Shown here piece after piece: positions 10,488-15,996 of a stretch of DNA of 64,000 bases. The notes below the pieces were generated by a model. That model searched no databases, had not been told where the DNA came from, and saw nothing but the letters and a program-made list of their open reading frames with translations. How positions within the stretch are numbered: the stretch's first letter is position 1; each line of letters opens with the position of its first letter. This DNA is from Spirulina subsalsa PCC 9445. GTDB lineage: Bacteria; Cyanobacteriota; Cyanobacteriia; Cyanobacteriales; Spirulinaceae. The DNA is taken from contig NZ_JH980292.1 of assembly GCF_000314005.1 (NCBI RefSeq), positions 5,057,894 to 5,121,893 of the forward strand, given 5' to 3'. The position numbers and the translations under genes are program-made.

Positions 10488-10523
10488 TCTGAATCTGGAC
10501 ATTGTTTTTTAGGGGTGCGGCTT

Positions 10524-12191
10524 ATGTCCTATTGTTTAGTCTGCCTTCCCGATACCCGACAGGAACGAAGTTTTCCCCTTCAGGTCGGCTCCAACATCAT
10601 TGGGCGTTCTCCCAACAATCATATCGCGATTAAACATAACAGCTTATCCCGCCGTCATGCTGAAATTATTGTGACCCCCCATCGGGTTATTTTGCGAGAC
10701 TTAAATAGTCTCAATGGAACCTTTGTCAATGAACGACAAATTCACACAGAACAGATTGTACAACCGGGGGATAAAATTGTCTGTGGCATGGTGATCTTTA
10801 AATTAATCCAGAAAGGCTTTTCTCCCTTTGCCACTAGCCCCGACTCCCAAGAACAGGGAATTGATACCCAAGGAATCCCCATTGTTCGCCAACTTTCACC
10901 CCGTCAAACTCGTATTGAAATTCAAGACATTTTAGATTCCAGTTCCCCCAGACAAACGGGATCTGCCTTGAAAATTCGGGAACAAAATGAAGCCCAACGT
11001 GCCTTAGATAAACTAAAAATTCTCCTAGAAGTCAGTAAAGAATTATCCTCTCCCGAAGACCCAGATAAATTATTAGAAAAAATTCTAGACTTATTATTAA
11101 AAATAATGAACGTGGATCGGGCTGCCATTTTAATGGTCAACGAAACCACAGGACAATTAGAACAACAAGCCGTTCGCTCCCGCTCGGGAATTTCCGTCAG
11201 CTACCAGTTTTATAGTACCCAAATCACCAACTATGTTCTACGACATGGGGATGCCATCCTCACCGACGAGGCGCGCAAGGATCAACGCTTTGAAGGATCA
11301 AACTCCATCTTAATCCAAGCCATTCGTTCCTCTATGTGTGCGCCCTTACAACCCAAGGAGGAGGTTTTAGGGGTATTATACGTCGATAATTTATCTTGTT
11401 CTAAAGCCTACACCGACGAGGATTTAGAGTTTTTAACCGCTTTGGCCAGTCAGGCGGCGATCGCCATTGAAAACGCCCGTCTCACCAACAAAATGCAAAG
11501 CGAAGCCATTTGGCGCGATAAATTAGAGCGTTTTTTCCCCTCAGCCGTCAGTCGCAAATTACGAGAAGAAGGCCATCTCGATATTATTGATACAGAAGTT
11601 ACCGCACTTTTTGCCGATATTAGCGACTTTACTAGAATGTCTTCCACCATGCAGCCTCGGGAAGTTATTGAAATGTTAAACGACTATTTCAACGTCATGG
11701 TCGAAGAAATTGTTTTCGCCTACGAAGGCACCTTAGAAAAATACATTGGTGATGCCTTATTAGCCATTTGGGGCGCACCCTACCCCCAAGAAAACGACGC
11801 ACAACGCGCCGTTCAAGCCGCCATTGATATGCAGTGGGCTGTCCGTCGTTTAAATCGAGAATGGGAGAAGCGCAACCGTCAACCTATTGCCATTCATATT
11901 GGCTTAAATACAGGGAAAGTCGCCGCCGGAAATATTGGCTCCCGCAAACTCATTCAGTATGCTGCCATTGGCGATACAACGAACGTCACCAGTCGCATTT
12001 GTAACGTCGCCAGAGCCGGGGAAATTCTACTCTCTCAAAGTACAATCGATCAACTTCAACCCGGACTCTTTGCCTTAGAAAAATTGCGCCCTGTACGAGT
12101 CAAAGGCAAGAGCGAACCATTACAACTCTATCGCTTAGATTGGCGACAAACCCCCGTAGATCAAACCATCGTTCACGATGCTAATTGTTAG
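10524..12191 (+). CDS. FHA-GAF class III adenylate/guanylate cyclase
   Basis: The protein has 555 residues from ATG 10524 (AGGGG lies 8 nt upstream; a GTG at 10515 is the alternative). An FHA domain (about 1-95) has NIIGRSPNNHIAI, SLSRRHAEI and LNSLNGTFVN. A GAF domain (about 165-320) includes DRAAILMVNETTGQLEQQAV and MCAPLQPKEEVLGVLYVDNL. The class III cyclase domain (about 355-535) has both metal aspartates (ALFADISDFTRM and YIGDALLAIWG) and the substrate loop IGDTTNVTSRI. FHA suggests docking to a phosphothreonine protein and GAF a ligand-controlled cyclase. cAMP is the likelier product from the Lys in EKYIGD and the Asp of the IGDTTN loop, but that needs assay. It converges on the stressosome operon, 5 bp from its end. 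Confidence 0.9.
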   Translation: MSYCLVCLPDTRQERSFPLQVGSNIIGRSPNNHIAIKHNSLSRRHAEIIVTPHRVILRDLNSLNGTFVNERQIHTEQIVQPGDKIVCGMVIFKLIQKGFSPFATSPDSQEQGIDTQGIPIVRQLSPRQTRIEIQDILDSSSPRQTGSALKIREQNEAQRALDKLKILLEVSKELSSPEDPDKLLEKILDLLLKIMNVDRAAILMVNETTGQLEQQAVRSRSGISVSYQFYSTQITNYVLRHGDAILTDEARKDQRFEGSNSILIQAIRSSMCAPLQPKEEVLGVLYVDNLSCSKAYTDEDLEFLTALASQAAIAIENARLTNKMQSEAIWRDKLERFFPSAVSRKLREEGHLDIIDTEVTALFADISDFTRMSSTMQPREVIEMLNDYFNVMVEEIVFAYEGTLEKYIGDALLAIWGAPYPQENDAQRAVQAAIDMQWAVRRLNREWEKRNRQPIAIHIGLNTGKVAAGNIGSRKLIQYAAIGDTTNVTSRICNVARAGEILLSQSTIDQLQPGLFALEKLRPVRVKGKSEPLQLYRLDWRQTPVDQTIVHDANC

Positions 12192-12196
12192 CTTGA

Positions 12197-13453
12197 CTAT
12201 CTTTGTTTAACGATCAATAACGTAATATCATCAAAAACCTTTTGTTCTCCAATATGTTGATAAACATCCTCAATAATCTTTAACTTAATTTCTTCACTCG
12301 ATTCATGCCAATACCGAGAGACTAAAGTACAGAGTCTCTCAATCCCATAATGCTCTTGCTCCAGATTTTCCGCTTCCGTAATCCCATCCGTATATAACAC
12401 AATTCCATCCCCCGGTTCTAACTCCACAAAATGATGATTGATAAACTCCTTAATATCATCATGTAAACCGATGGGAAACCCTAAATCAATCGTATCAATT
12501 CTTTCAACCTTCCCTCCCTTTCTCACTACAATGGTTTCCTCATGTTGACCACTAATGCTAATTTTACCCTTAGCATAATTCAGAATCGCTAAAGTAATAT
12601 TTTTATCCGACTGCATCCGTTCAATATTATTATAAATTGCCCGATTTAAAGTATCTAAAAACCGAACCGGATTTTTTTCTTGAATCTCTTGCAAAGTTCT
12701 AACGGCGGTTTGAGTCATCACCATCAAGATGCCACTTTCTAATCCATGACCCGTAACATCTCCAATAGCAATCGTAATCACCCCATCTGAACACAAAACA
12801 TCATAGTAGTCTCCCCCTACTTCATCCGCAGGCTGCATAAATCCGGCAATATCTAACTCCTGAATACTCTCTAATTCTTCAGTTTTAGGCAAAATTAATT
12901 GCTGCATTCGCTTAAGTAAATCTAACTCTGCTGACATCCTCAGATTATCTTTTGTGAGTTGCTCTTTCAGCAGGGTTTCTCGTTTTAATCTCTCCAGAGA
13001 TTTCAAAAGCTTTTTGTTCTTATTTTCTAATTCCTGCATTAATTCATAACGACTTTTCTCCGCGAGAATCCTTCTGGCCTCGTCTAAAATTCCATCATTG
13101 GGAATACCTGTCTTGAGGAAAACAAGACATTGCAACTGAAACGCTCTACGTTTGGATGTGAGATAATTCACTTCATCAAAAAAACTCAATAAAAAAGTAG
13201 CCTCTGATAGGGGGTTTTGCCCCACAAAAGTTAAACAAAATGCCACGTGATGAGCCTTGTTAAATAGAGCAACATTAACCGTTGATTTGACAGATGTTTG
13301 GTATAATAATCGACAGACTTGGGATGTTGCACTCGCAACTCTACCCGACATAATCGGATCTTCAGTCAATAACTTTAAAACCTGAAGTACCTTTTTTCGG
13401 ATGGCATAAATTGAATCGGAATGGGTTAAACTGATGCTACCGAGACGGATCAT
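12197..13453 (-). CDS. RsbU-like PP2C/SpoIIE-family serine phosphatase, last gene of the stressosome operon
   Basis: The protein has 418 residues. Residues about 1-110 look like a worn anti-sigma/HATPase-type fold without the ATP-binding Asn box. A coiled coil follows at about 130-185 (ENKNKKLLKSLERLKRETLL). The SpoIIE/PP2C domain (about 195-415) has the metal aspartates in GGDYYD (Asp215), GDVTGHG (Asp232), YTDG (Asp356) and FDDIT (Asp409/410). Such phosphatases normally dephosphorylate STAS anti-anti-sigma factors after activation by RsbT. Its start overlaps the rsbX stop by 4 bp, so translation is coupled. No anti-sigma factor, STAS antagonist or sigma gene follows, so its target is not in this window. 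Confidence 0.88.
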   Translation of the reverse strand: MIRLGSISLTHSDSIYAIRKKVLQVLKLLTEDPIMSGRVASATSQVCRLLYQTSVKSTVNVALFNKAHHVAFCLTFVGQNPLSEATFLLSFFDEVNYLTSKRRAFQLQCLVFLKTGIPNDGILDEARRILAEKSRYELMQELENKNKKLLKSLERLKRETLLKEQLTKDNLRMSAELDLLKRMQQLILPKTEELESIQELDIAGFMQPADEVGGDYYDVLCSDGVITIAIGDVTGHGLESGILMVMTQTAVRTLQEIQEKNPVRFLDTLNRAIYNNIERMQSDKNITLAILNYAKGKISISGQHEETIVVRKGGKVERIDTIDLGFPIGLHDDIKEFINHHFVELEPGDGIVLYTDGITEAENLEQEHYGIERLCTLVSRYWHESSEEIKLKIIEDVYQHIGEQKVFDDITLLIVKQR

Positions 13454-14061
13454 TTTTTATAGCGTAAAACAAGGCAAGTCGCATCATCATAAACTTTCTC
13501 AAACTGACGTACAATATTACGAGCTAAAGATTGGGGACTTTCATATAATAATTGAGGATAATCATCTACTTCAAAACGATCTTTTACCCCGTCGGTGTAC
13601 ATCAACAGAATATCTGTTGGCGTTAAATATAATTTTTGTTCAACGGGAGTTCGCATTCGATTCCCTACAATGCCATCCACAGAATAAAGACGTTTGGACT
13701 GCCTGCCGACTACGCGAATTGTAGTATTTCCTATCCCACAGTAGGATAATTCTCCCGTCTGCACCTTGAGGAGGCCTAAACCAACCGCAGCACCTAATGT
13801 TCCTTTACAATGGTCATGTAGACTGAAGAGGGTTGTTCGTAGATCAACTGTCCAGTTTTCTTGCAAAAAGTTTTGCATGAGTACTGAAACCTGATTGGCC
13901 TCTCTTCCATGACCTAAAGCGTCGATAATCCCTAAGAAAATAATACCATCTTTTTCATCGATCATGGCTTGATCTCCGCTCACTCGTTCGCCAAAGCAGG
14001 GACGACCAAAAATGGAGTAGTCTACAAGACTTAAAGCACTGGCTTGATTTTCATTGTCCAT
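13450..14061 (-). CDS. rsbX: RsbX-like stressosome feedback phosphatase (PP2C/SpoIIE family)
   Basis: The protein has 203 residues, one compact phosphatase domain with no sensor. Metal-binding positions are in SGDQAMI (Asp30), IIDALGHG (Asp47), MYTDGVKD (Asp157) and YDDAT (Asp192/193); GTLGAAVGLGLLK is also typical. In the Bacillus and Vibrio systems RsbX removes phosphate from RsbR and RsbS and resets the stressosome. Here it sits between rsbT and the rsbU-like gene and overlaps the latter by ATGA. The 53-bp gap from rsbT contains no obvious promoter or terminator. Confidence 0.88.
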   Translation of the reverse strand: MDNENQASALSLVDYSIFGRPCFGERVSGDQAMIDEKDGIIFLGIIDALGHGREANQVSVLMQNFLQENWTVDLRTTLFSLHDHCKGTLGAAVGLGLLKVQTGELSYCGIGNTTIRVVGRQSKRLYSVDGIVGNRMRTPVEQKLYLTPTDILLMYTDGVKDRFEVDDYPQLLYESPQSLARNIVRQFEKVYDDATCLVLRYKK

Positions 14062-14114
14062 GTTTTTTTAGAAAAGTTAATTGCCAGTATAATTATATGA
14101 TAATGTTTTACTAT

Positions 14115-14519
14115 TCACAGCCATTTTCGGATAATGACTTTTGTTCCCTGATTGACAATAGACGTAATTTCAAATTCATCCATCAGACGTTTGACTCCGG
14201 GCAATCCTAAACCGAGGGTTCCCGATGAACTGAAATAATCTTTCATGGCTTGGTCAACATTGGGAATACCGGGGCCGCTATCTTGACAAATAATCTCGAT
14301 GCCGGAACGTCGTCTCTCATTTAAGGGAGTAATAATAATTTTGCCTTTTTCGGCGTATTTAATAATATTGCGAGCCAGTTCAGAAACGGCGGTTGCAATC
14401 ATTTGGGCGCGACCATGATCAAATCCTACGCTTTGAGCCATCCGTTGGCTTTCAAAAATTGACCGAGTAATATCAGCTTCCCGATTAATCACAATCCAGA
14501 TTGATTTTGGATAATCCAT
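14115..14519 (-). CDS. rsbT: RsbT-type serine/threonine kinase (switch kinase)
   Basis: The protein has 134 residues, the family length. The GHKL ATPase motifs are intact: N box [13 protein letters not shown] (Asn51), G1 DSGPGI (Asp80) and G2 [17 protein letters not shown]. RsbT phosphorylates RsbR and RsbS in the stressosome under stress and is then released to activate a partner such as an RsbU phosphatase. It lies between rsbS and rsbX in one minus-strand operon. The preserved catalytic residues argue for activity. Confidence 0.94.
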
Positions 14520-14585
14520 AATTTTAGTTCTTTAATCAATTGAAGATCAGGTGAGACTTCTCCTGATAATTTTAACGTAACCATT

Positions 14586-15032
14586 TTATGAAAATTCGTC
14601 TTTTTTTCCTAAATTCTCAGAGACAAACTCGGGTTTTGTTGTTTGAACTTGTGACCATTCTTGTCGTAGTTCTTTCATCAGTTCAAAGGCATTATCTAAG
14701 GTTAAGGTAGCGTGAATTCGTTCAAAGTCTACCCTAAAATCAACGAGGGCGGACACTACGCCGGGTTGAAATCCACAAAGAATAGTTTTTGCACCCATTA
14801 AAGAAGCCATTGCTATAGTAGCGGTGAGATCCTGAAATTCGATCATATCCATCACTTCCACGCCGGATAAATCCAAAATAAGGCCGTGAGCGTTGGTTTG
14901 ATGGAGATAGGTTAGGACATCTTGCCGAAATTGCTGTAAGACGGCATCCGTTAAATCAATTTGAATGGAGGCAATAACACAATTTTGGGCAAATTGTAGG
15001 GGGATGCGTTGAATTTCGGATCTTTTGATCAT
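14586..15032 (-). CDS. rsbS: RsbS-type single STAS-domain stressosome scaffold
   Basis: The protein has 148 residues: a STAS domain (about 10-120) plus a short charged tail. LILDLSGVEVMDMIEFQDLT carries the DLSG loop, whose serine (Ser56) is the expected RsbT phosphorylation site; GAKTILCGFQPGVVSALVDF is also family-typical. RsbS forms the core of the stressosome with RsbR and holds RsbT inactive. The C-terminal extension of about 25 residues (ending KKDEFS) is longer than in Bacillus RsbS. It lies 46 bp after rsbR and 66 bp before rsbT. Confidence 0.92.
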   Translation of the reverse strand: MIKRSEIQRIPLQFAQNCVIASIQIDLTDAVLQQFRQDVLTYLHQTNAHGLILDLSGVEVMDMIEFQDLTATIAMASLMGAKTILCGFQPGVVSALVDFRVDFERIHATLTLDNAFELMKELRQEWSQVQTTKPEFVSENLGKKDEFS

Positions 15033-15078
15033 AACCTAGGTTATCCATTGGGGGTGATAGGTTGGGGATATTATCTGG

Positions 15079-15996
15079 TTATCGCTCGACTTTGTGAATT
15101 TGTAAGTTTAGTGAACGGAAGGAGTCGTTGAGTGCGTCCATCATGTTGGCGGTTGTTTTAATAGTTCCTACGTCAATTCCTAGTTCAATCATGGTTTGAG
15201 CAATGGCGGGAGAAATGCCGGAAATGGTTGATTCACAGCCCATTAAACGAGTGGCTTTGGTAATTTTAATTAGGTGATTGGCTACGGCGGTATCAACAAC
15301 GGCAACGCCACTAATATCCAGGATAAAAATTCTAGATTGGGTGCGATTAATGGCTGATAAAACGGCGTTCATGATGTCTTGAGCGCGTTTGGAGTCTACA
15401 ATCCCCACCACGGGTAAAAGTAAGATATTTTCCCAAATTTGGGTGACGGGGGTAGACATTTCCATCAGGGAGCGACTTTGGGCTGTAATTGTCTCGTTAG
15501 ACATGATGGTATAGACTTCGCAGACTATGCCTGTGTCGAGATGGAGGAGTTTGCTCACAGCATCAATGGTGCGGACTTGTTCTTTTAGTTTCAAGTTTCG
15601 TTGTGCCATGATTTTAGAAAAAAGGTCATGGAAAATGCTCATCCCGGCGAAAAAGATGGTCATGGACAGTCCGATTCTGGCGTGAGTTTCTCCAATTTTG
15701 CGCCGAGATTCTACATAGTTATCATCAAGTTGGGCTTCGATAAATTGTTCCCAGTAAATATGCTGCATTTTTTGGGCATGATGAAGCGCTCTACTGTCGG
15801 AAAAAAACTGTTCATATTCGGGTTGAGTCATGAGCCATTCATACCACGTATGAACCATGTGATCCATTTGGGGCAGCATAAATTCTCCGAGTTCTCGGAT
15901 ATAGTGAATGTCCTCTTCTGAGATTTTATAAAGTTTTTGTAGGGTGGCTGCATTCCTCATGTCTCCAGCGTCGCTAGCGTAAAAGTTGCTCATCAT
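15079..15996 (-). CDS. rsbR: RsbR-type stressosome sensor: globin-like N-terminal domain plus STAS
   Basis: The protein has 305 residues. Residues about 15-165 match a globin-coupled sensor/protoglobin fold. SRRKIGETHARIGL places His105 where the proximal haem histidine of such sensors sits, followed by a conserved hydrophobic helix. The STAS domain (about 183-300) has LPVVGIVDSKRAQDIMNAVL and FILDISGVAVVDTAVANHLI, with Ser229 at the usual phosphorylated position. In LPVVGIVD an Ile stands where Bacillus RsbR proteins often have Thr, so one of two phosphosites may be missing. It is the first gene of the operon. An oxygen, NO or redox sensing role through haem is inferred. Confidence 0.9.
   Translation of the reverse strand: MMSNFYASDAGDMRNAATLQKLYKISEEDIHYIRELGEFMLPQMDHMVHTWYEWLMTQPEYEQFFSDSRALHHAQKMQHIYWEQFIEAQLDDNYVESRRKIGETHARIGLSMTIFFAGMSIFHDLFSKIMAQRNLKLKEQVRTIDAVSKLLHLDTGIVCEVYTIMSNETITAQSRSLMEMSTPVTQIWENILLLPVVGIVDSKRAQDIMNAVLSAINRTQSRIFILDISGVAVVDTAVANHLIKITKATRLMGCESTISGISPAIAQTMIELGIDVGTIKTTANMMDALNDSFRSLNLQIHKVER

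Follow-up and report, generated by a model that had tools for sequence, protein, structure and literature searches.

A degenerate RsbT-type domain in the output phosphatase of a haem-globin stressosome operon of Spirulina subsalsa, and a proposed route from it to the slr1658/slr1659 switch

A 64,000-nucleotide stretch of contig NZ_JH980292.1 from the cyanobacterium Spirulina subsalsa PCC 9445 (GCF_000314005.1; called the window below) contains a stressosome operon that ends in a gene for a PP2C phosphatase. The operon occupies positions 12197-15996 of the minus strand and comprises five genes in the order rsbR, rsbS, rsbT, an rsbX-like gene and the gene for the output phosphatase. All five open reading frames were found where a preliminary description of the sequence had placed them, and its reading of the genes as a single operon is confirmed. 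Counted from rsbR, the intergenic gaps are 46, 66 and 53 bp, and the rsbX-like and output phosphatase genes overlap by 4 bp. The genes, with the E-values of Pfam matches in their products, are as follows.

15079..15996, minus strand: rsbR, haem-globin RsbR of 305 amino acids (Protoglobin 1.1e-30 and STAS 2.7e-13; match to structure 7o0i)
14586..15032, minus strand: rsbS, single-STAS scaffold protein of 148 amino acids (Pfam STAS 4e-7; alignment)
14115..14519, minus strand: rsbT, serine kinase of 134 amino acids (HATPase_c_2 2e-13; every ATP motif kept, namely the N-box, DxGxG and GLGLPG)
13450..14061, minus strand: rsbX-like gene, PP2C feedback phosphatase of 203 amino acids (SpoIIE/PP2C, PF07228, 5.5e-11; PP2C metal-Asp motifs seen)
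12197..13453, minus strand: output phosphatase of 418 amino acids, with a predicted pseudo-RsbT domain, a helical linker and a PP2C domain (PF07228 3.9e-38; profiles; structural model)

RsbR aligns over its full length with RsbR of the solved Vibrio vulnificus stressosome (7o0i; E-value 9e-96), far above chance. Four features were located in its gene.

15508..15948, minus strand: protoglobin (globin-coupled sensor) domain, residues 17-163 (PF11563; gap-free alignment to HemAT, 1or4, through the haem pocket)
15841..15843, minus strand: codon of Tyr52, distal haem-pocket tyrosine by alignment with HemAT Tyr70
15682..15684, minus strand: codon (CAC) of His105, proximal haem ligand by alignment with HemAT His123
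15172..15450, minus strand: STAS domain of RsbR, residues 183-275 (PF01740)

His105, already suggested in the preliminary description as the proximal ligand of a globin-coupled sensor, is invariant in nine aligned sequences, and Tyr52 is invariant in the same alignment of relatives. In the STAS region Thr236 is invariant, as are Ser181 and Thr182 just ahead of the domain. RsbR is the sole protoglobin in the window's genome. Oxygen, nitric oxide or redox state had been put forward as the signal. Because the homologues from V. brasiliensis (a 2016 study, PMC4976288) and V. vulnificus (Heinz et al. 2022, PMC9237108) are haem-O2 sensors, oxygen is, by analogy, the likely ligand; redox sensing fares less well, having been judged unlikely for the Vibrio protein in the 2016 paper. 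In the list given by Heinz et al., rsbRSTX modules that contain a globin RsbR occur in Cyanobacteria among other groups; in modules of this type RsbX directly follows RsbT, and PP2C phosphatases are among the downstream proteins (PMC9237108). We conclude that the operon is correctly described as a stressosome with a globin sensor, but that the class is not new, since it was published in 2016 and 2022 and Cyanobacteria were named.

In an alignment of RsbS, a Met follows the conserved Asp62, at the position of the classical RsbS phospho-Ser. This serine is likewise reported not to be conserved in V. brasiliensis (PMC4976288). Another stressosome locus (L068, 5961-6778, minus strand) contains a tandem pair of rsbT genes.

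The output phosphatase was divided into three parts.

13061..13453, minus strand: degenerate RsbT/RsbW-type GHKL domain, predicted, residues 1-131, without ATP motifs (model; hhalign; links between profile hidden Markov models; motif table)
12884..13060, minus strand: long helical linker, residues 132-190, with a conserved SRxELMxEL motif (profiles and alignment)
12197..12871, minus strand: PP2C catalytic domain with a SiaA/RssB-like fold, metal-binding Asp motifs kept (PF07228 3.9e-38; SiaA PP2C, 6k4e, Z 19.6; motifs)

The PP2C domain is complete, and its nearest folds are SiaA and other PP2Cs. The protein had been labelled RsbU-like, which is borne out by the PP2C domain with its metal-binding Asp residues but is misleading for the remainder. 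No Pfam match to RsbU_N was obtained at E<1, and the N-terminal domain was modelled as a mixed alpha/beta GHKL fold; an RsbU identity is therefore rejected. The first ~130 residues match no Pfam family, and a sequence search of the PDB with a profile of the domain returned chance matches only, so the fold was taken from structure prediction. Since the matches to a full-length model were mostly filled by the PP2C domain, the N-terminal domain was predicted and searched alone. The resulting model (mean predicted local distance difference test score, 88) has the order strand-helix-helix-strand-strand-helix-strand-strand-helix. Among solved structures it is matched best by RsbW (Z 14.6; root mean square deviation 2.1 over 101 residues), UsfX (Z 14.1), SpoIIAB (Z 13.8) and SiaB (Z 10.9); histidine kinases score Z <= 7.5. 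Comparison of the domain with RsbT by hhalign gave a probability of 73% (E 3e-5). A STAS origin, included as a control, reached 0.2% and was rejected. Among 829 open reading frames, the GHKL part alone matches intact RsbT at 3e-10 and the intact effector domains described below at ~1e-7.

Neither the N-box Asn nor a DxGxG or GxGxG motif is present in the N-terminal domain. With its ATP motifs (N-box, G1 and G2) lost, the domain is therefore taken to be a pseudo-kinase domain and not an active member of the family; conservation is highest in strand 1 and in the linker helix. Based on predicted fold and profile comparisons, we conclude that residues 1-131 are a degenerate RsbT/RsbW-type GHKL domain, for which we use the term pseudo-RsbT domain. 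The open-access literature was found to contain no mention of an RsbT/RsbU-GHKL link or of a degenerate stressosome ATPase domain, subscription papers, where prior notice is possible, being outside this scope; nor was a pseudo-RsbT input domain found mentioned in the accessible parts of the two Vibrio stressosome papers (PMC4976288, PMC9237108).

Pseudo-RsbT domains were found after rsbX in 12 genomes from four phyla, fused to PP2C domains or to histidine kinases, and the gene order R-S-T-X-effector is shared by loci of Cyanobacteria, Bacteroidota, Nitrospirota and Gammaproteobacteria. The fusion partner is a PP2C in other cyanobacteria, a PP2C plus HATPase in Bacteroidota, a histidine kinase in Nitrospirota and, in SAR86 and a marine Vibrio, a hybrid kinase with Hpt domains. 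At every globin-type locus that has an effector, the gene after rsbX starts with such a domain. RsbR of the marine Vibrio is closely homologous to that of V. vulnificus, and its effector has a PAS domain, as the V. vulnificus output protein D1 does; here the putative pseudo-RsbT domain, one of the weakest assignments by sequence, would occupy a type of output protein in which no input domain had been recognised previously. When 369 gammaproteobacterial genomes were searched blind with a profile of the domain, one previously unseen case turned up (genome G580), again directly behind rsbS-rsbT-rsbX.

Loss of the ATP motifs follows the type of sensor. Every globin-type effector (12 of 12) is without the N-box Asn and G motifs, and every non-globin effector (14 of 14) has kept them. 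At loci with a non-haem RsbR (cyanobacterial, roseobacterial, Paraburkholderia and Deinococcus), the downstream kinase begins with an intact RsbT-like domain; these domains match the RsbT profile at ~1e-15 to 1e-29, and most also match the profile of the degenerate domain. In a tree of GHKL domains, the degenerate domains cluster in a single long-branched group, apart from that of the globin-type RsbTs; the long branches preclude a finer reading. At the non-haem loci L053-L066, an intact GHKL domain is fused to the N-terminus of RsbX and a further one opens the next kinase, so that each operon has three tandem RsbT-like domains. On a Flammeovirga plasmid (L048, 1-1968), a pseudo-RsbT phosphatase with a C-terminal HATPase is followed directly by a STAS antagonist, an arrangement consistent with a STAS substrate.

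In S. subsalsa FACHB-351 the counterpart stretch has the same flanking genes and an RsbR that is 98% identical. Among 386 cyanobacterial genomes, a close full-length match was found in the window's genome only. The haem-globin type of stressosome is rare in the sampled Gammaproteobacteria and Bacteroidota, and a search of plasmids with the N-terminal domain of the output phosphatase gave no matches. The G+C content is 40% in the operon (12197-15996) and 47% in the window, which, together with the patchy distribution, hints at acquisition by horizontal transfer.

In four cyanobacterial relatives (a Microcoleaceae metagenome-assembled genome, Prochloron, UBA11370 and Spirulina SIO3F2), the operon extends into genes for an slr1658-family kinase and an slr1659-superfamily STAS protein. 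The kinases match the slr1658 family at 3e-75 to 1e-80 in three relatives and at 8e-63 in the fourth, and the STAS proteins match the slr1659 superfamily at 2e-39 to 6e-45. The slr1658-type family matches SiaB weakly, and the slr1659-type protein is SiaC/STAS-like. In Pseudomonas aeruginosa, SiaC is phosphorylated by SiaB, is dephosphorylated by SiaA and controls the cyclase SiaD (PMC7647112, PMC8457831). The preliminary description had reported no linked sigma factor, anti-sigma factor or STAS antagonist and had left the output unknown. The former is accurate for the window but does not extend to its close relatives, with their linked pair; the latter can now be improved on, since this SiaB/SiaC-like switch is linked in relatives and the window's genome has three slr1658/slr1659 pairs.

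All three pairs are unlinked to the stressosome operon. The pair at C2:1723 kb has a REC-PP2C of its own, and the other two have no PP2C directly beside them. The C2:4922 kb pair belongs to the same supported subfamily (97/92) as all stressosome-linked pairs, the other two falling outside it, and on this phylogenetic placement it is the best candidate for the substrate pair of the output phosphatase. One-to-one orthology of this pair with the linked pairs was not supported (approximately unbiased test, p 0.03). The REC-PP2C, slr1658-type kinase and slr1659-type STAS genes form an operon at C2:1721-1724 kb (L073, 5338-8112, plus strand), with a second kinase/STAS pair ~7 kb away (L073, 14998-15961). 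In genome G125 (L083), an slr1658-type kinase gene adjoins two tandem slr1659-type STAS genes.

The gene content, the haem-site residues, the predicted folds, the motif loss, the position of the domain and the kinase/substrate pair linked in relatives lead us to propose that a Vibrio-type haem-globin stressosome controls the PP2C through its pseudo-RsbT input domain and onward through an unlinked slr1658/slr1659 switch, a reading that we hold to be somewhat more probable than its negation. RsbR and RsbS would form the core. Upon loss of oxygen from the RsbR haem, RsbT would, by homology, phosphorylate RsbR and leave the core, which RsbX would reset; the oxygen dependence of RsbT activity and the assembly of the stressosome are carried over from homologues. 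Free RsbT would then engage the pseudo-RsbT domain, probably through pairing of the two GHKL folds of the kind seen in SpoIIAB/RsbW dimers, and its docking may stiffen the helical linker into a coiled-coil, switching the PP2C on. The presumed substrate is an slr1659-type SiaC/STAS-like protein, itself phosphorylated by an slr1658-type SiaB-like kinase. Besides the pairs linked in four relatives, the SiaA-like nature of the PP2C and the REC-PP2C, slr1658, slr1659 operon of the window's genome speak for a substrate of this kind. In Bacillus subtilis, RsbT binds the N-terminal domain and linker of RsbU, whereupon the linkers assemble into a coiled-coil and the phosphatase, now dimeric, becomes active (PMC12143880); the same logic is proposed here with a different docking domain.

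Several observations weigh against this proposal. V. vulnificus RsbT showed no interaction with the output protein D1 (PMC9237108), in two-hybrid work that was aerobic and that also gave no reproducible contact of RsbT with RsbR or RsbS. The pseudo-RsbT domains of Vibrio, Flammeovirga and Eudoraea are very divergent and are the weakest assignments, and in Vibrio the linker part alone scores by itself. A distant globin RsbR locus (L051, 6087-8428) has the R-S-T-X genes without an effector gene beside them; nearby, the opposite strand encodes a GAF-type GGDEF protein. Finally, the slr1658/slr1659 pair is unlinked in the window's genome, and a strictly orthologous relation to the linked pairs is unsupported, as given above. 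A wider statement, that haem-globin stressosomes of several phyla share a dead RsbT paralogue as effector input, which captures RsbT or the core in place of RsbU_N and in cyanobacteria passes an oxygen signal to the slr1658/slr1659 switch and, in part of them, also to a nucleotidyl cyclase, has in our judgement an even chance of being right.

A cyclase also lies next to the operon in the window.

10515..12191, plus strand: FHA-GAF-class III nucleotidyl cyclase, convergent with the operon (Pfam; adenylate-type residues EKYIGD and AIGDTTN)

A cyclic-nucleotide output is possible, with a class III cyclase under the control of the SiaC-like protein or of the PP2C itself, though we regard this as rather unlikely; it would be compatible with the proposed path as its last step. 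A PAS-class III nucleotidyl cyclase ends the operon in two of the four relatives, the P. aeruginosa cyclase SiaD is under SiaABC control (PMC8457831, PMC7647112), and the window's adenylate-type cyclase is 5 bp away. That cyclase, however, is convergent, stands beside purE and has FHA-GAF and not PAS domains, and beside the kinase/STAS pair of the other two relatives, L020 and L023, there is no cyclase gene. The position noted in the preliminary description holds, while the partnership suggested there is weakly supported, the terminal cyclases of the two relatives being of the PAS type, and the FHA-GAF cyclase is a possible partner of the stressosome.

The main rival to RsbT capture is that the pseudo-RsbT domain docks on the RsbR/RsbS core, competing or riding with RsbT, so that sequestration and release act on the effector itself and RsbT is not its partner. 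This would fit the missing contact between RsbT and D1 in Vibrio (PMC9237108). The domain is moreover an RsbT paralogue, and non-globin effectors carry an intact RsbT-like domain that might bind STAS partners. We nevertheless consider core docking doubtful: the ATP-lid/G2 region, where kinases of the RsbT/SpoIIAB-type family meet their STAS substrate, is lost from the pseudo-domain, whereas conservation is best in strand 1 and the linker helix. It is improbable that the domain is a dimerisation platform only, with a phosphatase that is constitutive or answers another signal and an operon position that is historical. GHKL kinases of the SpoIIAB/RsbW/RsbT family do dimerise, and PP2Cs of this kind act as linker-driven dimers (PMC12143880), but the occurrence of the domain behind rsbX only, in four phyla and with varied outputs, is hard to explain without a role in the stressosome. 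A classical cascade of the B. subtilis kind, in which an RsbU-type phosphatase would work with a SigF-type sigma factor and an unlinked RsbV/RsbW pair, is improbable even though the genome has other STAS and anti-sigma-type ATPase genes, since the phosphatase has no RsbU_N domain and relatives link the PP2C to slr1658/slr1659 and not to RsbV/RsbW or a sigma factor.

The operon shares with the oxygen-sensing Vibrio stressosome (PMC4976288, PMC9237108) a haem-globin RsbR, an RsbS without the classical phospho-Ser, RsbT, an adjacent RsbX and an output gene directly downstream; the output here is a PP2C, whereas in Vibrio it is a hybrid histidine kinase. With B. subtilis rsbRSTUVW-sigB-rsbX it would share, if our proposal is right, a stressosome feeding a PP2C through RsbT, but a degenerate GHKL domain replaces the four-helix RsbU_N domain, RsbX precedes the phosphatase, and RsbV, RsbW and SigB are absent from the operon. 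SiaABCD of P. aeruginosa has the same kind of PP2C, SiaA, and the relatives add a kinase resembling SiaB and a SiaC/STAS-like substrate, in two cases together with a cyclase; the differences are a stressosome and pseudo-RsbT domain in place of the SiaA sensor part, the slr1658/slr1659 subfamily, and a class III instead of a GGDEF cyclase. The non-haem stressosomes (L053-L066; cyanobacterial, proteobacterial and Deinococcus) share the gene order RsbR-S-T-X, and their effectors too begin with a GHKL domain of RsbT-like kind, but there this domain is intact and RsbX has a further GHKL domain.

New here, subject to the subscription literature, are the input domain of degenerate RsbT type and the connection with the slr1658/slr1659 switch. 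In the 2022 Vibrio study, most downstream proteins had no RsbU_N and no RsbT contact was seen (PMC9237108). To the question how stressosomes without SigB and RsbU relay their signals, a shared pseudo-RsbT domain offers one testable answer for several phyla. If the proposal is true, oxygen sensing in cyanobacteria would be tied to the little-studied slr1658/slr1659 switch, and a kinase fold would have been reused as a receiver.

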